Below are positions 7,212-52,542 of a stretch of DNA of 64,000 bases, one piece after another. The stretch covers positions 110,042-174,041 of IMG/VR virus record IMGVR_UViG_3300042887_005324; one strand, written 5' to 3'. Position numbers and translations under genes: made by a program. The notes below the pieces were generated by a model. The model saw nothing but the letters and a program-made list of their open reading frames with translations. It was not told the origin of the DNA and did no database searches. The DNA is from a virus. Numbering within the stretch: the first letter of the stretch is position 1; the number at the start of each line of letters is the position of its first letter.

Positions 7212-10200
7212 TTAAGGTATAAATTGACTATCCCCGGTGATTGTAAATATTGTATATAAACCATCAGTTGATGTAGTATAGGTTCCAATGACAGTACTAT
7301 TTTGAGAAGTCAAAACACGTAATATAACTACACCATTACTACCATTGCCACCTTGACCGGTATTAGTAGCACCACCACCACCACCCATACCATAACCACC
7401 AGCACCATTTGTACCAGCACCTCCAGTTGTATTACCACCCTTACCACCAGTATTTCCAGTACCACCGGATGATTGAACGGATCCGTTACCCCCACCACCA
7501 CCACCACCAGCAGAGTAATAAGAAGATGTTCCGGTAATTGAACTTGTTTTACCAGCACCACCATCACCACCGGCTTGTGAAGTTTGTCCCTCTGTACCAA
7601 CTGCACCAGCACCACCTCCACCACCACAACCGAAAGTACTCAATCCTCTTGACTGACCACCACTGTTGTATGAATTAATAGTTTGAAATTCTATAGTTAC
7701 ATTATTGACACCAGATCCACCAGCAACTGTTCCACCAGAACCTGGAAAACCTGCTCCTCCACCAGAACCATTACCGTTTGAATTCCCAACAACTGCTGTA
7801 GATCCACTTGAGTTGAATCCACCACCACCACCTCCAGAACCCGTGATAGTGAAATTACTAGAAGTATATTTTACACCTTGTATATATGATGTACCACCAT
7901 TACCGCCAGCTCCTGTAGTAGTTGCTCCAGCTCCACCAGTTCCAACAATAACATCATAAACAAATCCTTTAGCAAATCCAGAAGTTCCTTCTACGAAGGC
8001 TCCACCACCTCCGCCACCACCCCAGTTGCATCCACCTCCGCCACCGCCACCAATGACTAGATATTGAACTGAAACGTATGAGTAAATTGGTGGCTTTACA
8101 AAATTACCTTGTAAATATGGACCAAATTGTTGACCTGTTTCAGTTGTAACATTACCTCCAGAACCTTGTAGACCATACATTTCAATATAATCAGTGATAC
8201 CATCCATAAAAATCATTGCACTAATCATTGTTCCAACACCATTAGTATTACAAGGAACCCTAACACCTCTTTTAAATTCATATCCATTTTTATAAAGTGA
8301 CATAATTTGTGAGCCAGCATTTGAGGCGTATGTGACAACACTGATATGACCATGAAACAGATAATAGCCTGCTAAAGTTGGCGTAAATCGATAGGTTGAA
8401 GTGCTGAATGCGTTATCAGAATCAAATTCTTCAGTATCTAAAGTTATTTTAGTTACTACATTGTTATTTAGTGTTGTCGCAACACTTCCATAAGCTGAAA
8501 ATGCAGGACCATCAAGTGCTTTGAAAGTGGCAATTTGATAAGTAGCGGCATTAAATGTAGTAGCGGATGCTAGATTGATTACTGAAATAGTACCAGCTGT
8601 GAGTGTATTGGTTATTGTTGCATTATTCGTTACTGATAATGAACCAGTTGCAGATATATTACCTAGAATAGATTGTGTACCTGAAGATAAAGTTCCTCTT
8701 AGATTTGAGTTTCCAGTAATAGTCAATGAACCAGTTGCACTAATATTTCCTAATACAGATTGTGTACCGGAAAATACATTACCAGTCAATATTGAGTTTC
8801 CAGACACATTCAAATTACTACTAATTGTAGTTGGTTGGAATAACAAAATTGAGTTTGTTCCAAATGTCGACATTGTGGTAGAACCAATACCACCAGTATA
8901 TAATGATATATTAGTGTTTGAACCAACTGATATTCTTCCATTACCAGTGATGAAGTCTGTAACGATTCCATTTGTAAAACTACTAGAATATGTAGAAGTT
9001 GACAGTAATCCACCTATGACACTATAGTTGCCATAACCATCCAAAGTAGAAACTAAAGTTGTACCAGCATACCATTTGTGTGAAGATCCTTGAGTATCAA
9101 CACCATACCATAATGTAGAAGGAGCCACACCAAACGCGTAACCAGCACTAGCAGTACCAATTGTTTCATATAAGACTATTTTACTACCAATACTTCTTGT
9201 CGTGAAGGTAGGTGGTGCAGAACCACCAAAATTAGTCATATTAATCCAGCCACCGTTTGCATTGTTACCAGTCAATGTAACTAAAGCTCCACCACTACTA
9301 GATGTTATAGTTATTGGTGAATTTATATTGACCATATTTGTTGTAAATGTGATACTACTTGTACTTGAAATAGCTGATGTTCCAGAATAAAAAGCAATTT
9401 GATTAGTAGTTCCATTATTTACAGTGTTTATAGATGACCAAGTTGTACCATTATAAAAACTATAAAGTGATAGATTTGTATCAAATACTAACAAACCAGC
9501 AGTAGCTGATACAATTGCATTTTTTTCAGAAGATAACATTCTTGGTGGTAAGAAACCTTTAGTTGTTGAATTTAATGTCAAAATAGAACTTGTAACTCCT
9601 AAGAATGTTCCCCCATTTTGCAACATCAAACTACCATCCACAAACATTAACATATTCGTTGTGGTGCTGTTTCTCCATTCAAAAAGTGGTCTTGTTGTGA
9701 CTAAACTACTACCATTTAATCTAGATTCAAATCTAGTTATTGATGTTGTCCCAATATCAGTGCCCGTCAATAAATCCGAAAGAATCCAAGTTGATGGATA
9801 ACCATTTGTATTAGATCTAGACCATATCGTTGGTGCAAAAATATTTGCTGTTTGAACTCCATTTGTAAAACGTACATATCCGTCTGTCGATGATACACCA
9901 TTTCCATACATTACAATAAAACTATTACCGGTTGAAGTCACTTCCAATGAATATGTTGAACCAGTACCGGTGATTCTTTGTCTACCAACTACATCTAAGT
10001 TAAAAGAAGGTGCAGTCATACCTATACCAACACTTCCAACAGAATCCACAACAAAAGGACTTGAATCTGGATTACTAGAGTCTTCAACAATAAGTGCATT
10101 TCCTGAACCTGTTTGTGTTATTCTTACCAAATCTGTTGAGGTCTCACCTGAAACTCTCAAACCAATTGTTGAACCGGTTGACGCATCTATATCTAATTTT

Positions 10201-13200
10201 GATCCAGGTGTTATTGTACCGATACCTAAGTTACCATTATTAAAATATGAGTCACCGACTGTTGCAAAGTTTATGAGAGCTCTTCCAGCAACTGAATTTT
10301 GAATTGATCTATTAGATGTACCATTTATAAAGATGTTTCCATAAAGAAGTGTATTGCCACTTACATTAAGAACCGAGGTAGACGAAGTTGTTATTCCAAT
10401 ATAAACCTTTCCATCTGCAGCTACAAGAAATGGACTCGAATCTGGATTTGTGGAATCCTCTACAAGAATCGCATTTCCATCACCTAACTGTGTTATTCTG
10501 ACCATGTCAGTTGAACTACTACCCGATACTATTAATCCAGAACTAGTAGAATTATTTTGAATCTCAAGTGATGCAGTTGGCGATGCAGTTCCTATTCCGA
10601 CTTTTCCATCACCACTTATTGTTAGTCTTATACCTTTACTACCTCCATTATTAGTAACAAAATGATGACTCTTATTTTGATAGTTATTTACATAAATAGC
10701 ATCATTTCTATTCGCGAATAAATTGTTCCAAGAAGGCCCAGTAGCTCTATCTAATGAGATATAAAAAGAATTGTTTATGTTATAAGCATCATTTCTGTCA
10801 CTTAATACAATAAATGGAACTTTGGTTGTTGTGTCTGCTCTAGTCACTAAATTAGCATTGGCTAAAGTCCCACCATCAAAAAACATCACAGAATCAACAC
10901 CACTTGTTGATAGTGCATGTAATTGGTATGATGGTGCAGTTATACCTAATCCGAGTCTATTGTTAGTTTGATCCCAGTAGAATTGTGAGCTTTGTTGTAA
11001 TACATTACCAGATCCCTGGAATAATACATATCCGACAGTACCACTCAAAATAGAAGTAGAACCAACTGTCAGACTATTTGGACCAGTAGGTCCTTGGTTT
11101 CCTTGAAATCCCTGATTTCCTTGTGGACCAGTTGGTCCTTGATTACCTTGATTACCCTGAAATCCTTGAGGTCCAGTTGGTCCCTGATTTCCTTGTGGTC
11201 CAGTTGGTCCTTGAAAGCCTTGGTTACCTTGAAATCCTTGAGGACCGGTCGGACCTTGATTACCTTGATTTCCCTGAAATCCCTGAGGTCCAGTTGGTCC
11301 TTGATTGCCTTGGTTTCCTTGAAAGCCTTGAGGTCCAGTTGGTCCTTGAAATCCCTGATTACCTTGAAAGCCTTGAGGTCCGGTCGGACCTTGATTGCCT
11401 TGGTTACCTTGAAAACCTTGAGGTCCGGTTGGTCCTTGACTTCCTTGGTTACCCTGGAATCCTTGTGGTCCAGTTGGTCCTTGGAATCCCTGATTACCTT
11501 GAAATCCTTGTGGTCCGGTTGGTCCTTGTGAGCCAGTAGCGCCATTTGAACCTGTTCTACCTTGAAATCCCTGATTACCCTGGAATCCTTGTGGTCCGGT
11601 TGGTCCTTGAAATCCCTGATTGCCCTGGAATCCTTGAGGACCGGTAACACCACTGCCTTGAAAACCCTGAGGTCCAGTTGGTCCTTGATTTCCTTGAACT
11701 CCTTGTGATCCGGTTGTTCCTTGAGCTCCTTGTCCATTAGTAATAAGTACTGCACTAAACCAAGTACCCGAACCTAATGTACTACCTTTCAAAAGAGTCT
11801 GAGGTACCCCAGTATAAGCAGTAAAATCTACATAATCTGTAGTTCCGTTTAGGTATATAAGTTTAGTACCACCTGATGAAAATCCAGAAAATGTAGCTGA
11901 AGTTATTTGAGCTTGACTTATTAAGAAAGTACCACCGTTTTTACGAGCTTGTAAATTATGCTGATTATTAACACTATATGTACCTGACCACCAGCCATTT
12001 AAAGTAATTTCATAATATCCAGCTATTGTTGGTAAGAATTGTTTAGTTGATGCATTCCACCAATTTTGAGGATCAAAATCACTCACAAAAGCAATTAAAA
12101 CATCACTAGCTGTAAATGGTTGGTTAGCACTTAATATGCCTTGAGAAACATAATTAGATACAGACAAGTCAGCAGATGGACCAGTAACTCCCTGAAATCC
12201 TTGTGGACCAGTAGTGCCCTGTGGGCCTACTGAACCCTGATTACCTTGAAATCCAGTTGGTCCTTGAGGTCCTTGAGCACCAGATCCTTGTGGACCAGTT
12301 GTACCTTGTGGTCCAGTTGGTCCTTGGTTACCTTGATTACCTTGAAAACCAGTCGCTCCATATCCTTGTGGACCAACAGAACCTTGAAATCCTTGTGGAC
12401 CAGTTGGTCCTTGATTACCTTGATTACCTTGAAATCCTTGTGGACCAGTTGGTCCTTGAAATCCTTGATTGCCTTGAAACCCCTGAGGACCAGTTGGTCC
12501 TTGTGATCCAGTAGCACCATTAGAACCCGTTCTACCTTGAAATCCTTGATTACCTTGAAATCCTTGTGGACCAGTCAATCCCTGAAATCCTTGATTACCC
12601 TGGAATCCTTGTGGACCAGTTGGTCCTTGATTACCCTGGAATCCTTGTGGACCAGTTGGCCCTTGAAGTCCTTGAAAACCAGTCGCTCCATATCCTTGAG
12701 GTCCAGTAGATCCTTGAAAACCTTGAAATCCAGTTGGTCCTTGAAACCCTTGAAATCCCTGAGTACCTTGGAATCCTTGAAATCCCTGAGGTCCAGTTGG
12801 TCCTTGATTACCTTGAAATCCTTGAAACCCAGTTGGTCCTTCAACTCCTTGATCACCCTGGAGTCCCTGAGGACCACTTGGTCCCTGATCACCTTGATCA
12901 CCTTGAAAACCAGTTGGTCCTTGAAACCCTTGATCACCTTGAAATCCCTGAGGTCCTTGATCACCTTGATTACCTTGAAAACCTTGAGGTCCAGTTGGTC
13001 CTTGTCGACCTTGAAAACCTTGAGGTCCAGTTGGTCCTTGTCGACCTTGGAAACCCTGAACTCCTTGAGGACCAGTTGGTCCTTGTCTTCCCTGAAAACC
13101 TTGGAAACCTTGTGGTCCAGTTGGTCCTTGATCACCTTGAACACCTTGAAATCCCTGAGGACCAGTCGGTCCTTGAAATCCCTGGTCACCCTGAGGACCA

Positions 13201-13946
13201 AGTATACCAGTTAAGTTGACAGTCCATTCTGAATATGTAATACCAAATGTCGCGCCAAGTTCATTACACTCAACAATCATTTGTCCAGTACTTGCTGAGT
13301 AAGCAAGAATGTCTCCATTAAACTTATCAAGTTTATTACTAATTGGTGTTACTATTACCTGTTGTGTTTCAGTGTAAGCTAATAATGTATCAATTGTAAA
13401 TGAAACAGTAAAACCTAAATCTGGAACAGCGAAAGTATCATAGGTAAAGGTAGAATACTTATCACCTTTTGTTCCTTGAAACCCTTGAGGACCAGTAGCA
13501 CCTTGATTACCTTGAAAACCTTGATTACCTTGAAAACCCTGAAATCCGGTTGGTCCTTGAAAGCCCTGGTTACCTTGAAAACCTTGAGGTCCTTGAAATC
13601 CCTGTGCTCCCTGAAATCCTTGCGCACCTTGAAATCCTTGCGCACCCTGAAACCCTTGATAACCCTGTGGACCTTGGGATATAAAAGGAGTAACCCATTG
13701 AAAGCTATCACCATCACTGAAATAAACAAACTCAGTACCAGTACTTAAATCATACCATCTGTCACCGGTTATAGCATCAGTTGGTGCTGGTGGTTCTTGA
13801 ACAAAGTATCGGTTACTTACTGCAGCACCACCTACATCTAAAACATTACCACTTCCATCATAAAAAACGCCGTTGATATATTGAACTATTCTCGGAAATA
13901 ATTCCGGTACTATTTGTTCTATCTTATTCGGATTCTGCCTAGCCAC
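7212..13946 (-). CDS. giant collagen-like fibre with C1q-like domains and a glycine-rich tip
   Basis: 2244 aa, GTG start (an upstream ATG is out of frame). Order: N-terminal docking-like segment (about 1-90, with RIVQYINGVFYDGSGN); Gly-X-Y tract (91-161); globular domain (162-248); long Gly-X-Y tract (249-590); a C1q/TNF-like beta-sandwich (about 590-735); Gly-X-Y tract (737-957); a long series of head-fibre modules with repeated RLGLGITAPS- and VGIGTASPT-type motifs (957-1800); a second C1q-like domain (about 1807-1960); a poly-glycine region (about 1962-2218) like the receptor-contacting tips of T4-group adhesins; a short terminal domain. Probably the long receptor-binding fibre. Confidence 0.85.
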   Translation of the reverse strand: MARQNPNKIEQIVPELFPRIVQYINGVFYDGSGNVLDVGGAAVSNRYFVQEPPAPTDAITGDRWYDLSTGTEFVYFSDGDSFQWVTPFISQGPQGYQGFQGAQGFQGAQGFQGAQGFQGPQGFQGNQGFQGPTGFQGFQGNQGFQGNQGATGPQGFQGTKGDKYSTFTYDTFAVPDLGFTVSFTIDTLLAYTETQQVIVTPISNKLDKFNGDILAYSASTGQMIVECNELGATFGITYSEWTVNLTGILGPQGDQGFQGPTGPQGFQGVQGDQGPTGPQGFQGFQGRQGPTGPQGVQGFQGRQGPTGPQGFQGRQGPTGPQGFQGNQGDQGPQGFQGDQGFQGPTGFQGDQGDQGPSGPQGLQGDQGVEGPTGFQGFQGNQGPTGPQGFQGFQGTQGFQGFQGPTGFQGFQGSTGPQGYGATGFQGLQGPTGPQGFQGNQGPTGPQGFQGNQGFQGLTGPQGFQGNQGFQGRTGSNGATGSQGPTGPQGFQGNQGFQGPTGPQGFQGNQGNQGPTGPQGFQGSVGPQGYGATGFQGNQGNQGPTGPQGTTGPQGSGAQGPQGPTGFQGNQGSVGPQGTTGPQGFQGVTGPSADLSVSNYVSQGILSANQPFTASDVLIAFVSDFDPQNWWNASTKQFLPTIAGYYEITLNGWWSGTYSVNNQHNLQARKNGGTFLISQAQITSATFSGFSSGGTKLIYLNGTTDYVDFTAYTGVPQTLLKGSTLGSGTWFSAVLITNGQGAQGTTGSQGVQGNQGPTGPQGFQGSGVTGPQGFQGNQGFQGPTGPQGFQGNQGFQGRTGSNGATGSQGPTGPQGFQGNQGFQGPTGPQGFQGNQGSQGPTGPQGFQGNQGNQGPTGPQGFQGNQGFQGPTGPQGFQGNQGNQGPTGPQGFQGNQGNQGPTGPQGFQGNQGFQGPTGPQGNQGPTGPQGFQGNQGNQGPTGPQGNQGFQGNQGPTGPNSLTVGSTSILSGTVGYVLFQGSGNVLQQSSQFYWDQTNNRLGLGITAPSYQLHALSTSGVDSVMFFDGGTLANANLVTRADTTTKVPFIVLSDRNDAYNINNSFYISLDRATGPSWNNLFANRNDAIYVNNYQNKSHHFVTNNGGSKGIRLTISGDGKVGIGTASPTASLEIQNNSTSSGLIVSGSSSTDMVRITQLGDGNAILVEDSTNPDSSPFLVAADGKVYIGITTSSTSVLNVSGNTLLYGNIFINGTSNRSIQNSVAGRALINFATVGDSYFNNGNLGIGTITPGSKLDIDASTGSTIGLRVSGETSTDLVRITQTGSGNALIVEDSSNPDSSPFVVDSVGSVGIGMTAPSFNLDVVGRQRITGTGSTYSLEVTSTGNSFIVMYGNGVSSTDGYVRFTNGVQTANIFAPTIWSRSNTNGYPSTWILSDLLTGTDIGTTSITRFESRLNGSSLVTTRPLFEWRNSTTTNMLMFVDGSLMLQNGGTFLGVTSSILTLNSTTKGFLPPRMLSSEKNAIVSATAGLLVFDTNLSLYSFYNGTTWSSINTVNNGTTNQIAFYSGTSAISSTSSITFTTNMVNINSPITITSSSGGALVTLTGNNANGGWINMTNFGGSAPPTFTTRSIGSKIVLYETIGTASAGYAFGVAPSTLWYGVDTQGSSHKWYAGTTLVSTLDGYGNYSVIGGLLSTSTYSSSFTNGIVTDFITGNGRISVGSNTNISLYTGGIGSTTMSTFGTNSILLFQPTTISSNLNVSGNSILTGNVFSGTQSVLGNISATGSLTITGNSNLRGTLSSGTQSILGNISATGSLSVTNNATITNTLTAGTISVINLASATTFNAATYQIATFKALDGPAFSAYGSVATTLNNNVVTKITLDTEEFDSDNAFSTSTYRFTPTLAGYYLFHGHISVVTYASNAGSQIMSLYKNGYEFKRGVRVPCNTNGVGTMISAMIFMDGITDYIEMYGLQGSGGNVTTETGQQFGPYLQGNFVKPPIYSYVSVQYLVIGGGGGGGCNWGGGGGGGAFVEGTSGFAKGFVYDVIVGTGGAGATTTGAGGNGGTSYIQGVKYTSSNFTITGSGGGGGGFNSSGSTAVVGNSNGNGSGGGAGFPGSGGTVAGGSGVNNVTIEFQTINSYNSGGQSRGLSTFGCGGGGGAGAVGTEGQTSQAGGDGGAGKTSSITGTSSYYSAGGGGGGGNGSVQSSGGTGNTGGKGGNTTGGAGTNGAGGYGMGGGGGATNTGQGGNGSNGVVILRVLTSQNSTVIGTYTTSTDGLYTIFTITGDSQFIP
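11077..11738 (-). repeat. Gly-X-Y collagen-like repeat tract
   Basis: About 220 residues; unit GPTGPQGFQGNQGFQ recurs many times with near-identical DNA. Lies between the first C1q-like domain and the head-fibre modules. Confidence 0.9.
12178..13202 (-). repeat. Gly-X-Y collagen-like repeat tract (longest)
   Basis: About 340 residues of Gly-X-Y, mostly GPT-GPQ-GFQ-GNQ. A nearly identical block (GFQGRTGSNGATGSQGPTG) occurs in this tract and again in the 11077-11738 tract, indicating internal duplication. Confidence 0.9.
13464..13676 (-). repeat. Gly-X-Y collagen-like repeat tract (N-terminal)
   Basis: About 70 residues, rich in GFQ, GAQ and GNQ triplets, directly after the N-terminal docking-like segment. 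Confidence 0.85.
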
Positions 13947-14030: not shown

Positions 14031-14525
14031 ATGAAAAAGAAGAAGCTTAAAAAAATAGCTAAATTTATTTTTGATAGTGTTGAAAAAAAACAACTTAGAT
14101 CTTCAGAAATAAAAGAAACATATGAATCTTCACTTGCTCTTTCATATGACGAAGAAACATCGAATAAAATTTCAGATTTTATTCTCAATCTAATTACACT
14201 AGACTCTAAAATAAATCTTGAGATTAACGAAAACTATATAAACATCTATTGTAACTTATCTCAATTCTCAAACCATTCAAAAGGAAATACTTTGACAAAA
14301 GATGAATCACTAGAATTAAACATAACAGACTCATCTCTAAGAATTAGAAAAGATTATGGTACTTATATTGTTTATAAAGATTCAGTTACTTTCAACAAAT
14401 TAAAACCTATTCTTTTAGAGAAGCATCAAAAGAATTCAAACGAAGAGTTACAGAAAATCATAAATGATGTAATGATTGTAACAAAATTATCAAGAGATAG
14501 TAATTTAAATATTCTACTCGATTAA
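14031..14525 (+). CDS. hypothetical protein, first gene of the gp46 operon
   Basis: 164 aa with a very basic N-terminus (MKKKKLKKIAKF) and otherwise mixed alpha/beta sequence; no cysteines, signal or membrane segment. It ends 17 nt before gp46 and is co-directional, so it may work with recombination, but no motif shows this. Not a gp47/SbcD-type nuclease: the required metallophosphatase motifs are absent. Confidence 0.7.
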   Translation: MKKKKLKKIAKFIFDSVEKKQLRSSEIKETYESSLALSYDEETSNKISDFILNLITLDSKINLEINENYINIYCNLSQFSNHSKGNTLTKDESLELNITDSSLRIRKDYGTYIVYKDSVTFNKLKPILLEKHQKNSNEELQKIINDVMIVTKLSRDSNLNILLD

Positions 14526-14542
14526 AAATTAAAAATACTTAA

Positions 14543-16279
14543 ATGATTATAAGTGAAATAGGAATTAAAGGATTCAAGAGTTTTGGAAACAATGAGCAAA
14601 CTCTTAAACTAAATAATGAAAAAGGTGAACTAATTTTATTAACTGGTTCTAATGGTAATGGTAAGTCATCATTCATTGAATCATTTGAATATGTTTTATA
14701 TGGTAAAGTAAAGTCTATGAAAAAAAAGAAATGGGCTACCCTATCAACTTTACCTAACAGAATAAATAATGAGTTACAAAATAGAATCAAATTCGTTTCT
14801 AATGGTACTGAAATTGAAGTAATAAGAGGAATCAATCCAGGTACACTTAAACTAATAGAAAATGGTTTAGAAAACGACAGAGCAGGTAAAGCAAACTTAG
14901 ATGAGAAAATTGAAAATTATATCGGAATGGATATTGAAACATTTAAGTCTTTTATTTCTATGTCAATTAATGACTTCAAAAACTTTATAAGTCTATCAAC
15001 TGACGAAAAACAGTTGCTATTAGATAAGTTATTTAACTTAGAAGTCATAAATATTTTGAATCAAATTCTTAAAGACTTGAATAAAGTTAATAAAATTCAA
15101 TTAGCAAAGTATGATTCTGAGATTTCTACACTAAATGATTCAATCTCATCTATACAAAGGTCTATTCAAAAAGCTATTGAAAAAGAAAAGTTGAATATTC
15201 AATCAGAAATTGATGAGATAAAAAAACAAATTGATGACAGAAAATCTGAATATCAATTACTTAAAGAAAAAGTAGAAAAAATAAAAGTTAAAGAAAATGA
15301 ACTTAAAACAGAACTTGATTCAGAAAAAGAACAATATATTAATCTCAACTCTGAGATTAAGTCTGCTCAAAAAGACATTGATTTATATGATTCAGGAAAG
15401 TGTCCTACTTGCGGAACCGATTTTGATAATGATCATTTCCACAATCTTAAAGATGTATTATTAGAAAAAAAGAATTCATTAGAATCTCTTAGAAATGAAA
15501 TAGAAGCAAACATCAGAGGCATTAAAGAAAAGCAAGTTAAACTTCAAGGTATTTCTGATACAACTACTAAGTCATTTAATGATATTACTTATTTGCTTAG
15601 AAACTATAAAACACAAATAGAAAAACTACAGTCTCAGAAAGATAGAGAATCTGGTCAATCTAATGTCAATGTTGTCGAATTTGAAAATACAATAAAAGAA
15701 TTAGAATCTAAAAAAGAAACTAGTGTTGAATATCAGACTATTTCTAAGGAAAAAGAACTCTACTATAAAGAACTCTCGAAAGTATTTGGTGAAGATGGTG
15801 TCAAAAAAACTATTATCTCAAGTATTATAAAGCCGATTAATCATTTTATCAACGATAATGTTAAAAAGATGAGTCTTCCTTTTCAAGTTCAATTGGATGA
15901 AACATTTACGGCTCAAATCAAACAATTTGGCGGAGTAATTGAACATGATTCTTTATCGACCGGTGAAACCAAAAAGATAAATATTAGTATTCTGATTGCT
16001 TATCTAAAGTTAATTAGAACTAAAAAACATATCAATATTCTTTTCTTAGATGAGATATTTTCAAGTATTGACATCGAGGGTTGCGAAGACATTCTAAACT
16101 TGTTAAAATCATTTGCAAATGATTACAATATTAATATCTTTGTAGTTCATCACGCTATATTGAATCAAGAAGTTTTTGATAGAATCATACATATTAACAA
16201 AGATGTTTTTACAACAATAAATGAAATGAATATAGAAGGTGTAGAAGAAAATAAAATTGAGGAAAATGATTTTGTTTAA
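14543..16279 (+). CDS. 46: gp46/SbcC/Rad50-like recombination ATPase subunit
   Basis: 578 aa. Walker A GSNGNGKS at residues 35-42, long coiled-coil arms (about 180-280 and 305-390) with the zinc-hook CPTCG near 287, ABC signature SLSTGETKK near 470, and Walker B ILFLDE near 498. This is the architecture of T4 gp46, the SMC-like partner of the gp47 nuclease, which processes DNA ends to 3' tails for recombination-dependent replication. The arms are short, as in T4. The gp47 partner is not next to it and is not in the window. The following gene overlaps its end. Confidence 0.93.
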   Translation: MIISEIGIKGFKSFGNNEQTLKLNNEKGELILLTGSNGNGKSSFIESFEYVLYGKVKSMKKKKWATLSTLPNRINNELQNRIKFVSNGTEIEVIRGINPGTLKLIENGLENDRAGKANLDEKIENYIGMDIETFKSFISMSINDFKNFISLSTDEKQLLLDKLFNLEVINILNQILKDLNKVNKIQLAKYDSEISTLNDSISSIQRSIQKAIEKEKLNIQSEIDEIKKQIDDRKSEYQLLKEKVEKIKVKENELKTELDSEKEQYINLNSEIKSAQKDIDLYDSGKCPTCGTDFDNDHFHNLKDVLLEKKNSLESLRNEIEANIRGIKEKQVKLQGISDTTTKSFNDITYLLRNYKTQIEKLQSQKDRESGQSNVNVVEFENTIKELESKKETSVEYQTISKEKELYYKELSKVFGEDGVKKTIISSIIKPINHFINDNVKKMSLPFQVQLDETFTAQIKQFGGVIEHDSLSTGETKKINISILIAYLKLIRTKKHINILFLDEIFSSIDIEGCEDILNLLKSFANDYNINIFVVHHAILNQEVFDRIIHINKDVFTTINEMNIEGVEENKIEENDFV

Positions 16280-16562
16280 AATCAAATCTGGTTATTATTA
16301 TAATTTAACTTATTCAACTAATGACCAAATTGATTTTGATCCAACACTTTTATTGACTTCTGATATTGAACTCATAAGAGATTTAGAAGGAAAAATTGAC
16401 TATAAGTCAATGATTGATATTGAAGACATATTAATAAATGAAAACAAAATTCAAGGTTATTTTGTATCAAATTCAAGAGTTGATAAATGTCCAGTTTTTA
16501 AGATAGATTTAGAAAAAGAAATTAGAGATAATAAAATAAAAAATATAATAAATGAAAAATAA
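16266..16562 (+). CDS. hypothetical protein, 98 aa
   Basis: Starts at the ATG at 16266, 14 nt inside the end of gp46 (a TTG at 16257 is less likely). Acidic, with FDPTLLLTSDIELIRDLEGK and no recognised motif. Part of the gp46-bS21-DnaJ operon; function unknown. Confidence 0.65.
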   Translation: MILFKIKSGYYYNLTYSTNDQIDFDPTLLLTSDIELIRDLEGKIDYKSMIDIEDILINENKIQGYFVSNSRVDKCPVFKIDLEKEIRDNKIKNIINEK

Positions 16563-16803
16563 AAAAAACATACTAAGATTTTTATTAATCTTTTTGATCT
16601 CGTTCATATTGTTTGAGATATTAGAACACTCGGTTGAATATATTTTTGATATAGATTTTCATAACTTAGAATGGGGTTGGGCAGGATTTATTGTTGTATA
16701 TGGATTTAAGTACCATATATTCTGTTGTTTATTACCTGCAATATGGGCCGGATATAAATGTAGACATAATAATTGTGAGCATGAATACTGTGAGCATAAA
16801 TAA
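16552..16803 (+). CDS. small membrane protein with Cys/His-rich tail
   Basis: 83 aa. Two hydrophobic segments (about 9-24 and 44-66) and a C-terminal tail CRHNNCEHEYCEHK that could bind a metal ion. Overlaps the previous gene by 11 nt. No family recognised; an inner-membrane protein is inferred. Confidence 0.65.
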   Translation: MKNKKNILRFLLIFLISFILFEILEHSVEYIFDIDFHNLEWGWAGFIVVYGFKYHIFCCLLPAIWAGYKCRHNNCEHEYCEHK

Positions 16804-17011
16804 CAAATCATCGTTCGATCCAATAACATCATCTGGCGTAAATATTACTACTGCCTCATCAATCACAATTGATAAAAACTTGATTGAATATATAGATTTA
16901 TTATATCAATTATTAGGAGTAGATATTGATTTTGAAAGGTGGAAAAATATGAATCTTAGTGATCGAATCAACCTAATTAGAGATATAAAAATTAAAAAAT
17001 TAATTGATTAA
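16781..17011 (+). CDS. hypothetical protein, 76 aa
   Basis: The ATG at 16781 is chosen because the longer frame would run back deep into the upstream membrane-protein gene; this start gives a 23-nt overlap. The product has a Ser/Thr/Asn-rich N-terminus and a C-terminal helix pair (IEYIDLLYQLLGVDI, LSDRINLIRDIKIKK). It ends 3 nt before bS21. Function unknown. Confidence 0.6.
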   Translation: MNTVSINNKSSFDPITSSGVNITTASSITIDKNLIEYIDLLYQLLGVDIDFERWKNMNLSDRINLIRDIKIKKLID

Positions 17012-17014
17012 ATT

Positions 17015-17209
17015 ATGATTATTATTGAAATCGAACAAGGAAAAGATGGACTTGAGAAGTCGTTGAAAAAGTATAAAAGAAAATTCGACAAGCTTAAAAT
17101 TATGAAATCTCTTAGAGATAGAAAATATTACAAAAAGAAATCTGTCAAAAGAAGAGAAGAGATTAATAAAGCTATATATGTTCAACAAAAATTTAAATCA
17201 GAAGACTAA
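17015..17209 (+). CDS. rpsU: ribosomal protein bS21 homologue
   Basis: 64 aa, full length for Bacteroidota bS21. It matches the family along its whole length: a beta-strand start (MIIIEIEQG), the basic helix LKKYKRKFDK, a second basic stretch LRDRKYYKKKSVKRREE, and a C-terminal KAIYVQ. bS21 binds the 30S platform next to the 3' end of 16S rRNA. In Flavobacterium ribosomes bS21 with bS18 and bS6 is reported to sequester the anti-Shine-Dalgarno sequence, and the tyrosine in this C-terminal segment (Y55 here) aligns with the one described there. Packed in the gp46 operon (3 nt upstream gap, 1 nt downstream overlap). Confidence 0.92.
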   Translation: MIIIEIEQGKDGLEKSLKKYKRKFDKLKIMKSLRDRKYYKKKSVKRREEINKAIYVQQKFKSED

Positions 17210-17616
17210 TGGGATTTTTCAAAAGGTTTATTACTAAGGACTTAATACTTGCACAAAAAAATTGTGAGAGTGTATTGAATTTATTAGAAGCAGATGCAGT
17301 AGTCTTTGATACTTGGTCATCTAACTTCTTCAAAAGATTTGATGACAATTATAACGATTATCAAGAAAAAAGACAAAAAAAGATTGAACAATATCAGTTC
17401 TCATCTTCTTATGCAAATATACAAGAATTTGACACACATCATATTTCTAATATTTTAATAAATCTCAAAAATGAACCTTGTTGGATCGATATACATGTTT
17501 GTCTCGAAGCATTTAAGCCGGTTGAGATATCATCTAGAATAAGTGGTCAGTTTGAATTACTTCGTGAATTTTGTATAAATCTGATTGAAAATAAACTCGA
17601 GAATGGATTTCAATAA
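17209..17616 (+). CDS. hypothetical protein, 135 aa
   Basis: Its ATG shares one base with the bS21 stop codon, so translation is likely coupled. The protein has aromatic-rich sequence (DTWSSNFFKRFDDNYNDY) and a C-terminal helix; no known motif. It overlaps the DnaJ start by 14 nt. Function unknown. Confidence 0.65.
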   Translation: MGFFKRFITKDLILAQKNCESVLNLLEADAVVFDTWSSNFFKRFDDNYNDYQEKRQKKIEQYQFSSSYANIQEFDTHHISNILINLKNEPCWIDIHVCLEAFKPVEISSRISGQFELLREFCINLIENKLENGFQ

Positions 17617-18325
17617 AAATTATTATTCTATTTTAGGATTGAATTCTAATTCAACTGAAAAAGAAATAAAGAAGTCTTACTATAAATTATCTTTTACACA
17701 CCATCCTGACAAAGGTGGTGACGAATTAATTTTCTCTGAAATAACAGAGGCATATGATATTTTGATGGATGAAAAATCTAGAGAAGAATATGATAAAAAA
17801 AGTAAATGGGGTTCAAATTATGATGAATCAATTGAACTTTTGAACTATGAGTTTAGTAATACAGCAAAAGGATGGGATGAAGAAAAACTAACTGGTTGGA
17901 TAAATGAGAATCAATTAAATATTTTAATATACATAGATGATTCATTTGATGGTAAAGTTGAATACGAAAGATGGGTCACCTGTAAAAAATGTGGAGGAGA
18001 TGGTAAAGACACAACATCTAAAATTCAAATAAAAGATGAAAATGGAAACATTTTAAAACTTTTTGATGGATCAGAAGGATGTGATTTTTGTGAAGGAACT
18101 GGTAAAAACTGGAAGAACGAATCTTGTTATTTTTGTGCAGGTAAGGGTAAAGTAGGTTTTACTGATTGTCAATCCTGTAATGGTGAAAAAAGAATAAAAG
18201 GAAAACAAAAACTAAAAGGTATAAAGTTTCCAAAAAAAGAAAAGGCACACAAGATTGAAGCAATGGGTCATGTGTCTAAATTTGAAACAGGCAAAGTTGG
18301 TTGTCTTTGGTTAATTAAAAAATAA
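17603..18325 (+). CDS. truncated DnaJ/Hsp40-like co-chaperone
   Basis: 240 aa from the ATG at 17603. A J domain occupies residues 1-70 with HPD at 34-36, the tripeptide that stimulates DnaK ATPase. A cysteine-rich region holds four CxxC units (CKKC near 127, CDFC near 160, CYFC near 175, CQSC near 189), as in class A DnaJ zinc fingers. The Gly/Phe linker is reduced and the C-terminal substrate-binding beta-domains and dimerisation region of host DnaJ (about 370 aa) are missing. Likely recruits host DnaK for replication or virion assembly, as lambda redirects DnaJ/DnaK; the specific role is inferred. Confidence 0.88.
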   Translation: MDFNKNYYSILGLNSNSTEKEIKKSYYKLSFTHHPDKGGDELIFSEITEAYDILMDEKSREEYDKKSKWGSNYDESIELLNYEFSNTAKGWDEEKLTGWINENQLNILIYIDDSFDGKVEYERWVTCKKCGGDGKDTTSKIQIKDENGNILKLFDGSEGCDFCEGTGKNWKNESCYFCAGKGKVGFTDCQSCNGEKRIKGKQKLKGIKFPKKEKAHKIEAMGHVSKFETGKVGCLWLIKK

Positions 18326-21300
18326 TTATACGCCATCTCCACCAGTTGGAGCGTCTTCTGGACTTCTAGATGCTTGACTATAATTATTAAGTTGACTTGG
18401 ATTCCAAGGACTTGGTTGAGGTACTGACGAAATTCCACCTTGTTGGCTTAAAGGTTGTTGTTGAACAATACCTTGTGTATCAAAATTCAAATTTACATTA
18501 CCAATAAAGTCAAAATTAGAATCAGTATAATCAATATAAGGAGCAGTTGCTTTTAATGGTATCTTAATTCCTTCGTATATACTAGTAGCAGTTGCATATT
18601 GGAAGAAAGGAACCATATCAACTTCAGTAAATGAAATATTTCTAAATGAAATTCTAGTAGTAAGATTTGAAGTCGGTGGATAATTACTTGTATCAAATGT
18701 TCCTATTGAAATATTTTCGTTTAATATACGATTATCTATTACAAGATCCAAATTCTGTCTATTATAGAAGAATTCAACTTTTTTTGTAAGTGAAGTTTCT
18801 TGATGATTAAAGTCAGTAAGTAAAATTTTAGAGTATCTATTTATAGTTTTAGAACTCGTAGCACCACTAAAATCAGAAGAAGCAATATCAAGTTCAATTG
18901 CATAGTATCTGTCTACTAAAGTTGTTATATCATTGTTTCTCAACTCAAAACTATGTCTTTTTGAAACTCTATATTGACCAAGACCAGGACCTACACCACT
19001 TTTCGTCTGTGCTCCACCATCCGAAAAAGTGAATACTAATCTACCAGCTGTTTGTGAACTTCTATTCGAATCGATTTTAATTCCTTTAGCAGGTGTTATT
19101 TGAATTTCACCGACACCATAGTTGAAACTATAAGTTGCAATTCTTGAAGTAATATCATTTACTTCCCATCCATCATTTGTGAAATTAGTAATAGTAAGTT
19201 GTGGACCGAAAAGTTGATTTGAGTAGTTGTTACTGAACTGTTTAAAGAAAAATCCATTATCAGGCATTAGATTTTCAAATCTAGAGAACTTTGTACCAAG
19301 TTTATAATCTCTACTAACAGTAGCAGCAAAGTCTCTAAATGTTGATTGACTTTCTAAGACATCTAATGTTACAAGTCCATCTAAATTTGGTAGATTTTTG
19401 ACAACAGATTGTGTTGTGCCATCAACTTGAGGAACTTCAGAAAAGACTACTTCAGGTAAATTCAAATTACTTTTTGAAAAATTCTCATAAACAACATCCA
19501 TGAAGCTCAAATATTTCTTCTCATTCTCTAATCCAACATTATTATCCACAAAACTCATTTTCTGAACTAATCCGGTGTTGTAAATTGAATCTGGATTTAA
19601 TGGATTAGAAGATTTATTTGAAGTAAATCTACCACCATCAATCTTACCATCAATCATCTGAGACTCATACATCTGTGTAATTTTCGGATATCCTTTAAAT
19701 AAACCATTATTCCAAACTCCTCTGAATCCGCCATTTAAGAAAGCTCCTGATAACCAAATATTTTTCGTAACATATATTAAGTGATTAAAAGAATCTCTTA
19801 CTATTCTTCTTATTGGGAAGTTACTCACTAATTTAAGAACCACAATGTTATTTGTATAATCAATATTAATAATTCTAAACCAATCCTTAATTAATTTTCT
19901 TTGTTCATTAACATCAATTGCTACTATATTACCGACTGAAACTTTATCACCTAAGGAAAGATTTGTTATTTCATCTATTGATTTCAATGCGACATTCCAA
20001 GTAATATCATCGATTTGTACCGTACTTAAATTAGTTGTTGGTGTTAAACCATCTATACCAATCACATCAGAAAATAAGATATAATCTTGTTCGTCAAACC
20101 ATTCGGTATTGCCTCTGAAACCATTGTTCCAAACACCATTTTCCCAAATACCGGACCTAAACACACCATTACCATAATTAATACTTACTAAATTACCGTT
20201 ATCTGAGGTTGCAGTTGGTCGTAAATAAGCATCATTTGGAAGTGAAGCGGTGTTCCCAACTACTAAGTTCTGTATAACTACATTATTATATGAAGGGTGA
20301 TATTCAGTTGATTTCTTTGTAACTTGAGCCGAAAGAATTCTTAATATACCTTGTGTAGCTTTTCTTATCCAGAATTTATTACCTATAACCTCACCATCTG
20401 AGTTCTCAGCAAGTAATTGTTCAGCAGTTGGTGTGTAGTTTAGTGTAATTTCATAAATTTTTGGATAGTAATTTCTTTTTATTGTACTACCACTGCCTGT
20501 TGTGTAACTATCACTATCTAAATAAGCAGTATATGGAGTTAGAGCGCCGATACCGAACTCAACACCAACCTGAGTTATTAGTTCAACCGATAAGACTAGA
20601 TTAATTTCGTAGGTTGTTGAAGCATCATCAAATATTTCTAAACTCGTAAGATTAATAACATTACCAACATGTCCATACAATCTCCTACTAGGAGCAATGT
20701 CAGGTCGTTGTGTTGAGTTGTATCCAGCTACAACTGCAGGTGATGCTACTTCAGGTAGATCTCCGCCTTTTGTAAAATAGTGAGTATCACTGATAGTAAA
20801 TATTTGATTATTGGTTTGTCTAAGTGAAAAAGTAGATCCTTTATTCCAATAAGATCTATCCAATTCCCCAAATACTCTCGTTTTTGAGGCGTTGGTTCTG
20901 ACTTCGTTATAGGTATAGACGGTACTACTTCCTGGAATTGTGTAACCAATTACTCCATTATATTTTAGGTCGTCATTATATATGATTGTGTTAGCATCAG
21001 CTCCGTACATAACCATTGAAGCAGTAGGTGTGGTGAAGAAAAAATCTATGTTCGCGGTCAAATTCGGGTCAGTCAGTAGACTCTGAGGCGCGATAGATGA
21101 ACTAAAGGCATTTATAACATGTAATGAAGAAGTACCAATAAATCTTGAAACATTTCTTATTAAGTCTAATTGTTTTCCTTTCAAAACATACATTGCTCTT
21201 GTATTAGACCAAGTTGCTAAAGAAGTATAATCAAATGGTGAACCGTTCCAGTTACCATTTCTCCATAAACCATCTTCCCAATAAATATTCTCGGCAGTTC

Positions 21301-24300
21301 CATAATTCCAAGTACCATTCGTCCATTTTGCACCAGCCATATATCCGGAATTGAAAGTTCCTTTCTTCCACTCAGCGTGATAAAAAGAACCAGTACCGTA
21401 GTTCGAATTAAATTTACCATTTTCCCAAACAATTGATGCAGTTGAAGCAAAAGATGATTTCGAGAAAGAACCTGTGAATGTTCTATCAACATACGGATTA
21501 AATATACTGCTATCAAAATTACCATCTTGGAATGAACCAGATAAAAATAGAGAATTTTTAAATGTTCCTTGAACATGACTAAAAGTACCACTAAGCCAAA
21601 GCATATTATCAAAAAGAGCCAAATTATTAGTTGATACTTTTTGATTGTCTTTAGTAAGCTCAGTAAATATTATACCATCACTTTTGATTTTCTCTGGTGT
21701 ATCAATAACATTACCACTTCTCCAAAGACCATAATAACTTGATGTGAAAGAATTAGCAAAGTCAAACTCACCTGTTGTATCAGTTGGTGAATCTGAAAGA
21801 CTAAAAGTTCCACTTCCTAAGAAACTACCTTTATTAAAAGTTCCACTGTACCAATATCTTCCAGCAAAAATACCATCATTAAACTCACCAGTATACCAAA
21901 CTGAGTTAGTCGCAGTACTTGAATTACCAAACTCACCGCCATTAAATTTACCATTTTCCCATCCATAAAAAGAAGCTGTCAAAGCAGTACCAATGGGTTT
22001 AACATTAGTGTAACCATATTCAGAAAGGAATTTACCTTTATTAAAATTTCCGTCTTTCCATCTAGCTTGTAAAGTAAGTTTACCACCATTAAAATCTCCA
22101 TTATACCAAATAGACTCATTTGTTGATTGTGACCCAAAACTAGTGAACTCACCATTGTCAAATTTACCATCTAACCAATATACACTACCAGATCCACCAA
22201 CCAAAGCATTTTCCACGATACCATTCTCCCATGTTGTGAAAGTTGCTGCAGTAGGAATATATCTTTGAAGACTACCAAGTGTAGTATTGGTATAATTTAA
22301 ATTTCTGGATCCAAGTATACCATTTTTCCAATCACCACCATACCAATCTGAATTATAAAATCTACCATTCTCAAATGTACCATCTGACCAAGCTGATTTG
22401 TAGAACTCTCCAGCTGAGAAAGTACCTTCAATCCAAGACATATATTGACTAGTTAAGTCATAGTTATAGTTAGAACCAGCTAAATATGTAGAAGTAGTAA
22501 GTCCCTTAGAATCAATGAAACTACCGTTGTTGAATATACCATCTAACCAATATGAACTTTTGAAAATTCCATTATTGAAGGTACCTTTATTCCAAATTGA
22601 GTTAAAAAATATACCATTAGTCCAAGTATCATTTATGAAATGTGATTTGTAGACTAATCCAGACTTGACATTGTTGTTTGAGTTTTTGAAAAAATGATTA
22701 ACTAATCTTAAAGTATTTGTATTATCAACATCAAGATTTTTATCTCTATTGTTAAATTCTGAATTTTCGATAGTAGAATTTTTAATAAGATTTCTTTTAA
22801 ATAATCCAGATACTATTTTAGAGTTATCTATTAGTAATGGATGTATAGAAATATAATTTGCTTTTTCTCCCTCATTAATTGATATTTCGTCGAACGTATC
22901 TGGCCAAACTTGGTTTGATTTTCTAGTGAGTGTATATCTAATATATCCAGTTTGTGAAATTTCTAGTCTACCACCGACCTGGTATCTACCAGATAAATCA
23001 TAAACAACTGGGTCATTATTCTTTCTAACTGAAACTCCACTCAACCAAACATCTTTGTTATTAATTTCAAAGTCAAAATAATTAGAAGCGACAATTTGTT
23101 GTGTTGGTGGAGTGCGGTGAGAGTAGAAAAACTTATCAGAAAGATATATATATATTCTATTCTCATCAGAACGTGATATTTTAAGAAGATTAGTATCCGG
23201 ATCAGTCGACAAAGCTTGATTTCTAGTAATTATATTTTGACTAATATTTACATTATCTCCACTCAACCAAGTTGAATTATAAAAAACACCAAATTTAAAG
23301 TCTGCATTATGTATATAAGTATTATTGAAAACTTTACTCAAAGTAGTAAAAGTTACTGGACTAAGTAAAAAATCATCACTGTATACTGTAGTGTTATTTG
23401 TGCTATCTTTCCAATATCCTAGTAATTTATGATCTATATCAATTGATGAGTAAACTGTCGTGTTAGTCTCAAAGGTATTATTATAATCAGTACCATTGTA
23501 ACTAACATAATATTTAATTTTATTATCATTTTTACTCTTGAAAGTAACAACAATTCTTTCATCTTCTTTTAATTCGTGATCAACATATGAATCTAAAATA
23601 TACTTAGTTTCAAAAGGTAAAATTATTTTTTGTTGTTCATCTAAGCTAGATAAAATATATTCTTTATTTACTCTTGAAATATAAAATGAGTTACTTATAT
23701 TTAATCTTAAAATATCATCATCTGAAATGTAAAGCTTAAGTATTCCTCTTACATAGTCAGTACCAAGAGATGATTCGTCTCTATTATATGACCAAATATC
23801 ACTTGCTAAAATTTTGATACCACTTTTATCACTATATTCACTAAGATTAGCTGTTGATTTAGTTATTTGACTGTTAATTAATTTTGAATTGTTTATATTT
23901 GATTCACTAATTTGACAATCTTGCAAAGTTGCATTATTAACACTTGAAAATTGAATATCACCAAATTTGATTTTTGCTTTATTAATTTTTGAAGGATAAG
24001 AGAAAGTTAATCCATCATAAAAATTATCTATTGCTTTACTAAAATTAGATAGAGAGTATCCAAAATTAACCCTTTCAAATACTCCATTATTAACCTCGGA
24101 TGCAAATAAATTTGTGTCAACTACTAAATTTCTACCAAATCCTTTATTATTAGTAAAGTCAATACTCTGAGTTCTAACTTTTTGATTCGTAGTCTCATTT
24201 AATGAAAGCTTAGAATAATAAGTTTTTTCATTATCTGCAGATTTAGAATTCATTATACCAAAATTCCAGTTAGAATTAAGAAATATACCACTTTGCCAAG

Positions 24301-25306
24301 TAGCACCTAATGATCTATAACTACTACCTAGCTTCTTACCCCAATTATTTATTTTAAGATTTGTTCCAAAGACACCATCTTTATGATCACCTCTAAAAGT
24401 ACCATATCTAAAGTTTAGCTTTGATATAAAAGGATCTTTATAAAGAATATCAGTTTTCCATGTTGTGCCATCAAAGGTATAAATACTTCTTTGTCTAAGT
24501 GTTAGATTAGTAGTAAATGAGGGTGTTTGAAGAACTATATCTTCACCAACAATTAATATTGAATTGTTTAGATTATTTCTTGGATTTATTGATATTACTC
24601 TACCTGCTAAAAACTCTTCAGTTACATCGATCCACTGTGGTGGGGAATTTGAGTCATCTCTCACAAAAAAACCACTTCCTCCACTAATACCTCCGTTTAT
24701 GGATAAGTCATCAACTGGATCTGGTGGAAGGTAGTCTGTTAATTGCAAAAAGACTAGTGAATCACCAAAGAGAACACAATACTGATCACTTGAACCAGAT
24801 ACCATCGGTAGTTTTTTTCCGAAGAATTTACTTGCAAATCCTTGTGGTTTAGTGAATAAAGGAATTCCTATATCGTTTGTTACAGTAATTTCATCATAAG
24901 CAATTTGAAAGGTATTAATATAATCGAATTCTCTTGGATTATTTACTCTTACTACCTTTATGAAATCATTATAATTAGATTCAACAAACGGCAATGTACC
25001 ATCATAGTCTATGTCTAATATTATTCTACAACCATCACATGCTAATACACGATATCCATCAGTGTACCTTGTAAACTTATTATTAGATATTAGCACATCA
25101 GAATCGTAATTACCATTTACAATAAATACTCTATCACCAACATTGAAATTAGTATTATTTTCAGTATAAAATACTGTTTTTCTAAAACCACCTATTTCAA
25201 CTGGTTCTGTAAAATTTAACAATCTAGAACTATAAAACTTATCTGATTTTTTTGTTTTCAAATAAGTAGGATTGGAACTTAGAACTTTTGAAGTAGGTGT
25301 TGCCAT
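18326..25306 (-). CDS. giant virion protein with WxxG/F repeats
   Basis: 2326 aa. A beta-rich N-terminal third is followed by a long repeat region (about residues 890-1740) of short units such as WNKGTFNNGIF, WLDGIFNNGSF and WENGKFNGGEF, where an aromatic residue and a Gly alternate with a spacing of about five, as in pentapeptide or MORN-like solenoids. Smaller copies occur near residues 300-350 and 1845-1890. The C-terminus is Pro/Gln/Ser-rich. No signal peptide. Size, composition and the late-type upstream box fit a baseplate or fibre component. Convergent with DnaJ with no gap. Confidence 0.75.
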   Translation of the reverse strand: MATPTSKVLSSNPTYLKTKKSDKFYSSRLLNFTEPVEIGGFRKTVFYTENNTNFNVGDRVFIVNGNYDSDVLISNNKFTRYTDGYRVLACDGCRIILDIDYDGTLPFVESNYNDFIKVVRVNNPREFDYINTFQIAYDEITVTNDIGIPLFTKPQGFASKFFGKKLPMVSGSSDQYCVLFGDSLVFLQLTDYLPPDPVDDLSINGGISGGSGFFVRDDSNSPPQWIDVTEEFLAGRVISINPRNNLNNSILIVGEDIVLQTPSFTTNLTLRQRSIYTFDGTTWKTDILYKDPFISKLNFRYGTFRGDHKDGVFGTNLKINNWGKKLGSSYRSLGATWQSGIFLNSNWNFGIMNSKSADNEKTYYSKLSLNETTNQKVRTQSIDFTNNKGFGRNLVVDTNLFASEVNNGVFERVNFGYSLSNFSKAIDNFYDGLTFSYPSKINKAKIKFGDIQFSSVNNATLQDCQISESNINNSKLINSQITKSTANLSEYSDKSGIKILASDIWSYNRDESSLGTDYVRGILKLYISDDDILRLNISNSFYISRVNKEYILSSLDEQQKIILPFETKYILDSYVDHELKEDERIVVTFKSKNDNKIKYYVSYNGTDYNNTFETNTTVYSSIDIDHKLLGYWKDSTNNTTVYSDDFLLSPVTFTTLSKVFNNTYIHNADFKFGVFYNSTWLSGDNVNISQNIITRNQALSTDPDTNLLKISRSDENRIYIYLSDKFFYSHRTPPTQQIVASNYFDFEINNKDVWLSGVSVRKNNDPVVYDLSGRYQVGGRLEISQTGYIRYTLTRKSNQVWPDTFDEISINEGEKANYISIHPLLIDNSKIVSGLFKRNLIKNSTIENSEFNNRDKNLDVDNTNTLRLVNHFFKNSNNNVKSGLVYKSHFINDTWTNGIFFNSIWNKGTFNNGIFKSSYWLDGIFNNGSFIDSKGLTTSTYLAGSNYNYDLTSQYMSWIEGTFSAGEFYKSAWSDGTFENGRFYNSDWYGGDWKNGILGSRNLNYTNTTLGSLQRYIPTAATFTTWENGIVENALVGGSGSVYWLDGKFDNGEFTSFGSQSTNESIWYNGDFNGGKLTLQARWKDGNFNKGKFLSEYGYTNVKPIGTALTASFYGWENGKFNGGEFGNSSTATNSVWYTGEFNDGIFAGRYWYSGTFNKGSFLGSGTFSLSDSPTDTTGEFDFANSFTSSYYGLWRSGNVIDTPEKIKSDGIIFTELTKDNQKVSTNNLALFDNMLWLSGTFSHVQGTFKNSLFLSGSFQDGNFDSSIFNPYVDRTFTGSFSKSSFASTASIVWENGKFNSNYGTGSFYHAEWKKGTFNSGYMAGAKWTNGTWNYGTAENIYWEDGLWRNGNWNGSPFDYTSLATWSNTRAMYVLKGKQLDLIRNVSRFIGTSSLHVINAFSSSIAPQSLLTDPNLTANIDFFFTTPTASMVMYGADANTIIYNDDLKYNGVIGYTIPGSSTVYTYNEVRTNASKTRVFGELDRSYWNKGSTFSLRQTNNQIFTISDTHYFTKGGDLPEVASPAVVAGYNSTQRPDIAPSRRLYGHVGNVINLTSLEIFDDASTTYEINLVLSVELITQVGVEFGIGALTPYTAYLDSDSYTTGSGSTIKRNYYPKIYEITLNYTPTAEQLLAENSDGEVIGNKFWIRKATQGILRILSAQVTKKSTEYHPSYNNVVIQNLVVGNTASLPNDAYLRPTATSDNGNLVSINYGNGVFRSGIWENGVWNNGFRGNTEWFDEQDYILFSDVIGIDGLTPTTNLSTVQIDDITWNVALKSIDEITNLSLGDKVSVGNIVAIDVNEQRKLIKDWFRIINIDYTNNIVVLKLVSNFPIRRIVRDSFNHLIYVTKNIWLSGAFLNGGFRGVWNNGLFKGYPKITQMYESQMIDGKIDGGRFTSNKSSNPLNPDSIYNTGLVQKMSFVDNNVGLENEKKYLSFMDVVYENFSKSNLNLPEVVFSEVPQVDGTTQSVVKNLPNLDGLVTLDVLESQSTFRDFAATVSRDYKLGTKFSRFENLMPDNGFFFKQFSNNYSNQLFGPQLTITNFTNDGWEVNDITSRIATYSFNYGVGEIQITPAKGIKIDSNRSSQTAGRLVFTFSDGGAQTKSGVGPGLGQYRVSKRHSFELRNNDITTLVDRYYAIELDIASSDFSGATSSKTINRYSKILLTDFNHQETSLTKKVEFFYNRQNLDLVIDNRILNENISIGTFDTSNYPPTSNLTTRISFRNISFTEVDMVPFFQYATATSIYEGIKIPLKATAPYIDYTDSNFDFIGNVNLNFDTQGIVQQQPLSQQGGISSVPQPSPWNPSQLNNYSQASRSPEDAPTGGDGV
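20080..22640 (-). repeat. coding region of WxxGxF solenoid-like repeats
   Basis: Tens of degenerate units coding W-x-x-G-x-F/W-x-x-G. DNA identity between units is low compared with the collagen tracts, so the repeat is old and kept at protein level. Confidence 0.7.
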
Positions 25307-47824: not shown

Positions 47825-47896
47825 AACGGCAATTAGAGAGAATTAAGAAATTGATATATTGATTATATATCAAAAAACAAAAATAAACGGCAATTA
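47825..47896 (+). promoter_or_regulatory. leader with repeated AACGGCAATTA and a 9-bp inverted repeat
   Basis: AACGGCAATTA occurs at 47825-47835 and again at 47886-47896, the second copy overlapping the ATG. Between them, 47851-47873 is an inverted repeat with perfect arms TTGATATAT/ATATATCAA around a 5-nt centre. The layout suggests protein binding or translational control of the sigma gene. Confidence 0.45.
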
Positions 47897-52462: not shown

Positions 52463-52534
52463 TGCGGGATAGAGCAGAGGTAGCTCGCCAGGCTCATAAC
52501 CTGGAGGTCATTGGTTCAAATCCAGTTCCCGCTA
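52463..52534 (+). tRNA. initiator-type tRNA-Met (CAU)
   Basis: Folds as a full cloverleaf: acceptor TGCGGGA/TCCCGCT with only position 1:72 unpaired (T-T), D stem GAGC/GCTC with A11:T24, anticodon stem CCAGG/CCTGG around CTCATAA, T stem ATTGG/CCAGT with loop TTCAAAT. An unpaired 1:72 and the A11:U24 pair are hallmarks of bacterial initiator tRNA, and the anticodon is CAU. The first of the three G:C pairs normally next to the anticodon loop is A29:T41 here. CCA is not encoded. An elongator Met or Ile2 tRNA is less likely because of A11:U24 and the 1:72 mismatch. Confidence 0.9.
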
Positions 52535-52542
52535 CAAGATAT

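Follow-up and report, generated by a model that had tools for sequence, protein, structure and literature searches.

A Bacteroidia-type bS21 gene without a Shine-Dalgarno leader, placed between gp46 and DnaJ in a probable fragment of a huge phage

Among ribosomal proteins, bS21 is the one that phages carry most often, and the reason for this has long been discussed. The question is raised by one gene in a 64,000-nucleotide stretch of viral DNA, hereafter the window (positions 110,042 to 174,041 of IMG/VR record IMGVR_UViG_3300042887_005324). The gene is located at 17015..17209 on the + strand and encodes a 64 aa protein from an ATG start, in agreement with the original prediction. Does such a protein change which mRNAs the host ribosome favours, or does it keep the ribosome as it is and differ from the host protein in the way that its synthesis is controlled?

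The ORF was recognized as bS21 by profile and structure searches. Pfam Ribosomal_S21 (PF01165) matched it at profile positions 9-53 of 55 (E = 3.1e-9), and the score of 36.8 bits was above the curated cut-off of 27 bits. The PHROG annotation was ribosomal protein S21. The top solved-structure chains were both Bacteroidota-type bS21, i.e., 9i5v (1.3e-10) and Flavobacterium johnsoniae 7jil (3.7e-10), and the alignments spanned residue 1 to the KAIYVQ / KAAYIQ segment. The AlphaFold2 model (mean pLDDT 88, pTM 0.45) consists of two long helices, which span residues 12-36 and 42-63; Foldseek with this small, two-helix model gave no significant match. By these matches, the ORF is a genuine, full-length, Bacteroidia-type bS21, and the full length claimed for it earlier was confirmed. 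It is the sole bS21 in the 174 kb record. A null result of tblastn with bS21 against the phage collection was discarded because homologues are present in LR745206 and LR756502; the likely cause is the low-complexity filter acting on a lysine-rich protein. IF3 and bS18 were also sought in the record and its relatives, and neither was found. Thus, there was no sign of the phage replacing the pocket protein bS18.

The bS21 gene belongs to a block (14031 to 18325) in which eight + strand ORFs overlap or follow one another closely. The first member (14031..14525, 164 aa) had no assigned function in the ORF list and profile scans. It is followed by a gp46 / SbcC-like recombination nuclease subunit (14543..16279, PHROG 77, E = 1.7e-78). 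Between gp46 and bS21 are placed an ORF of 98 aa (16266..16562), which has a 36% identical homologue in locus L044, an ORF of 83 aa (16552..16803), which overlaps its neighbours by gap analysis of the ORF list, and an ORF of 75 aa (16784..17011) directly upstream of bS21. The former two had no assigned function. Downstream, a 135 aa ORF (17209..17616) overlaps the bS21 stop codon (TAATG) and matched no Pfam family above cut-off. The last member is a DnaJ-like co-chaperone (17603..18325) with a PF00226 J domain (E = 1.9e-19) and a weaker zinc-finger match. Those neighbouring ORFs without assigned function that were scanned in Pfam and PHROG matched no family above cut-off. The statement that bS21 stands beside gp46 and DnaJ, not among ribosomal genes, was therefore upheld by PHROG 77, the J domain, the common strand and the gaps, and we infer that gp46-bS21-DnaJ is one transcription unit.

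The same order of gp46, bS21 and DnaJ on one strand was found in seven distinct lineages, i.e., the window, L002/L018, L014-L016, L017, L044, LR745206 (L284) and LR756502 (L285); the number of small ORFs that separate the three genes varies from none to several. The DnaJ-like proteins of these relatives are 53-59% identical. In LR745206 and LR756502, the flanking ORFs on both sides are also shared, with homologues of the 75 aa ORF just upstream and of the 135 aa ORF directly downstream of bS21. Two further huge phages, LR756504 and LR756501, have bS21 placed away from gp46.

Two giant genes on the opposite strand enclose the block. One encodes a 2244 aa protein (7212-13946, -), probably a tail fibre, whose collagen-like GPQGFQG repeats are long; the ORFs in other frames of this gene are shadows of its low complexity. 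The other, a 2326 aa protein (18326-25306, -), adjoins the bS21 block and has many W-x-x-G-x-F-x-x-G repeats; L017 also has a similar protein upstream of gp46, encoded on the opposite strand.

The 174 kb record is most likely part of the genome of a huge phage related to the 634-642 kb Mahaphages, a kinship based on gp46, the ligase and synteny. The window gp46 is 69% and 68% identical to those of LR745206 (634,780 bp) and LR756502 (642,428 bp), respectively, and the NAD-dependent DNA ligase (45924-47762, +) is 66% and 64% identical. These phages share the gp46-bS21-DnaJ block, whereas their bS21 proteins are only 53-57% identical to that of the window, whose record is a fragment of 174 kb. 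All five genomes larger than 634 kb were placed in the Mahaphage clade, with predicted replication in Bacteroidetes (Al-Shayeb et al. 2020, PMC7162821), and from their sizes we infer that LR745206 and LR756502 are among them. The hosts of these closest huge phages are predicted to phylum only, i.e., Bacteroidetes. The bS21 tree (64 columns) was poorly resolved, and no host order was assignable from it. A search of the 174 kb fragment for terminase with PF03237 found none, and megablast of the window's tail region gave no near relative.

The structure of the anti-Shine-Dalgarno (ASD) pocket was reportedly described by Jha et al. 2021, and Y54 was the pocket contact residue compared in this study. 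In F. johnsoniae, Y54 stacks on 16S rRNA A1534, and strong-SD reporters are translated more with Y54A or when the C-terminal region is missing (McNutt et al. 2023, PMC9976891). The window protein is like that of F. johnsoniae in being full length with this tyrosine, because its Y55 aligned with Y54; the retention of the C-terminal KAIYVQ with a tyrosine at the equivalent position had been predicted correctly. Of 51 distinct phage proteins, 50 have Tyr and one has Phe at this position, which was no part of the pattern by which the phage loci were collected. In a broad sample around Flavobacterium, bacterial bS21 had an aromatic residue at position 54 in 34 Bacteroidia-type proteins and Arg in all 76 of the other type, so that the position is a lineage marker. 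An aromatic residue here marks the Bacteroidia-type, ASD-occluding bS21. By alignment, phage bS21 carries this Bacteroidia state, with Y55 in the window copy.

Other parts of the protein are diverged. Alignment to host sequences gave 41-46% identity between phage and host bS21, and functional equivalence is not assured with so many differences. The window protein is 43% identical to the Flavobacterium protein in L094, which equals 7jil over the 57 residues compared. The proteins of the gp46-bS21-DnaJ module differ from the host in the N-terminal half and at A34 (to D/E), T36 (to K) and P41 (to K). Phage-specific divergence was reported at Arg21, Phe23, Asp25 and Thr28 (Chen et al. 2022, PMC9723584), of which Asp25 appears to be position 24 in the present numbering. 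In contrast to those phages, the seven module proteins are largely host-like in the 21-24 stretch, i.e., R21 in 6/7, an aromatic residue at 23 in 7/7 and D24 in 6/7. In close phage bS21 pairs, none of which includes the window gene, dN was well below dS; by this comparison, phage bS21 is under purifying selection.

The leader of the phage gene differs from that of the host gene. Only 3 nt separate the end of the upstream gene from the ATG. For each gene, pairing energy was calculated between the 30 nt before the start, minus the last 3 nt, and the 16S tail ACCUCCUUUCU. Among Flavobacteriales rpsU, gathered by likeness to F. johnsoniae, all 72 distinct genes had a dG of -16.0 kcal/mol or lower (median -17.1). 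The window leader (16985..17014, +) had +0.2 kcal/mol, against the value below -13 kcal/mol that characterizes the extended SD of autoregulated Bacteroidota rpsU (McNutt et al. 2023). Phage bS21 leaders from 47 distinct genes had a median of -1.0 kcal/mol with one below -10, and the extended SD was absent from 46 of them. The exception, at L045 6001-6201, equals the gene at L290 1492-1692, from the 735 kb phage LR756501. Its SD, AAAGGAGGA / AAAGGAGGATAA, pairs at -12.1 kcal/mol, and no other phage bS21 in the set has a strong one; the autoregulatory leader may have been retained here. The loss of SD in phage bS21 is thus not universal. Another ORF of LR756501 had -13.4 kcal/mol (L287, minus strand, 11100-11450 in reverse-complement coordinates).

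In a wider bacterial sample, 22 of 34 Bacteroidia-type rpsU genes were below -13 kcal/mol and 12 were above -8, i.e., without strong SD, which agrees with the figures that McNutt et al. 2023 (PMC9976891) give for each order. In hosts of the latter kind, there would be no feedback to escape. Phage ORFs in general gave 0/156 below -10 kcal/mol, with a median of -0.9 compared with -1.3 in shuffled leaders; the starts were uncurated first ATGs, and a short overlap between stretches was counted twice. Lack of SD is the default of these phages' genes, and that of bS21 may therefore be default rather than a selected escape. It is an equally simple reading that the leader has no SD since all genes of these phages have none.

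Taken as a whole, the results are best explained by a Bacteroidia-type bS21 that would be made outside host feedback, preserve occlusion of the ASD and indirectly silence host rpsU. A probability of about 0.5 is given to this explanation. During infection, phage bS21 would be made within the gp46-bS21-DnaJ transcription unit, and it would bind 30S subunits in place of host bS21 or where host bS21 is absent. The 16S 3' tail would then stay occluded in the normal Bacteroidia way, keeping the SD-less initiation mode that phage mRNAs use. On SD-less mRNAs, initiation is poor when ribosomes lack the C-terminal region of bS21 (PMC9976891). Since the phage genes are SD-less, the phage would have a reason to keep ribosomes replete and occluded. 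F. johnsoniae rpsU has an extended SD and is autoregulated, because ribosomes that lack bS21 expose their ASD and preferentially translate rpsU (PMC9976891), whereas the phage gene has no SD and its synthesis may not be throttled by replete ribosomes. Host rpsU needs the ASD-free ribosomes which phage bS21 would remove, and it would consequently be repressed while the bS21 pool shifts to the phage protein, presumably to the benefit of the phage. That a phage bS21 can enter a bacterial ribosome was reported for a Pelagibacter phage protein in E. coli, according to a citation within PMC9976891. A stronger form is less probable: a takeover that breaks the feedback. In it, phage bS21 would fill bS21-less ribosomes and escape the feedback through its SD-less gene, so that the synthesis of host bS21 would collapse and leave a phage-marked pool.

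The original prediction was that phage bS21 may retune ASD occlusion and could alter the choice of favoured mRNAs. This part was not borne out, as the key tyrosine is kept and none of the 156 phage ORFs is below -10 kcal/mol. The evidence points to preserved occlusion, and both feedback escape and the SD-less default speak against loosened occlusion. A related proposal was made by Chen et al. 2022 (PMC9723584), in which the diverged N-terminal helix selects mRNAs. Ribosomes with a changed helix or altered ASD handling would then prefer phage messages, and the differences of the module proteins from the host in the N-terminal half and at positions 34, 36 and 41 agree with this. However, the stretch in which the published divergence lies is largely host-like here, and phage leaders offer no strong SD to be recognised preferentially, so weaker occlusion would not obviously help them. 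Retuned initiation is accordingly considered doubtful.

It is also conceivable, though rather unlikely, that the phage simply supplies bS21. With host synthesis shut down or host bS21 gone, the extra protein would maintain the full complement of bS21 on the subunits and would alter neither specificity nor feedback. The retained tyrosine fits this supply role, as does the weakness on SD-less mRNAs, such as those of the phage, of ribosomes lacking the bS21 C-terminal region (PMC9976891). Supply alone leaves the divergence from the host protein unexplained, but it is otherwise hard to separate from the preferred explanation, i.e., feedback escape with preserved occlusion. The constant gp46-bS21-DnaJ order in seven lineages could instead suggest an extraribosomal role tied to these neighbours, e.g., reuse of the ribosomal fold to bind nucleic acids during recombination. 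This is very improbable, given that the conserved bS21 residues including Y54 are kept, and that the separate placement of bS21 and gp46 in LR756504 and LR756501 makes the link not obligatory.

Phages with bS21 are known. Chen et al. 2022 (PMC9723584) already proposed that the phage protein substitutes into Bacteroidetes ribosomes, and they argued from Tyr54. Their Bacteroidetes freshwater phages resemble the window phage in the aromatic residue at 54, the Bacteroidetes host (predicted for the window phage) and the proposed substitution. However, their bS21 is a late gene beside those for terminase (TerL), major capsid protein (MCP), protease and portal, while the window gene lies between gp46 and DnaJ with small ORFs as neighbours. 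Owing to this different context, the timing of expression may differ. McNutt et al. 2023 discussed phage bS21 and suggested host autoregulation as a counter-defence (PMC9976891). The paper of Chen et al. 2022 (PMC9723584) yielded no analysis of SDs in the phage rpsU leader, and a search of openly accessible main texts found no paper on the SD of phage rpsU leaders or on the gp46-bS21-DnaJ block. The missing autoregulatory SD and the conserved gene neighbourhood thus appear to be undescribed before. Retained occlusion together with the missing SD allows a cheap test that could tell feedback escape from simple supply and from retuned specificity. This regulatory difference from the host gene makes the long-discussed question of phage bS21 directly testable.

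Other genes related to gene expression were found in the window. A tRNA-Met(CAT) at 52463..52535 (+) has initiator-type features, i.e., no Watson-Crick 1-72 pair (U1 opposite U72) and A11-U24, and copies of 84-89% identity are present in G004, G005 and LR745206. By these features it may have a part in initiation, with no link to bS21. An initiator-like tRNA is seemingly also present in several bS21-carrying huge phages. A second tRNA-Met and a tRNA-Cys are located elsewhere in the 174 kb record, and a phage factor of the sigma-70 family, with regions 2 and 4, is encoded at 47896-48507 (+) of the window.
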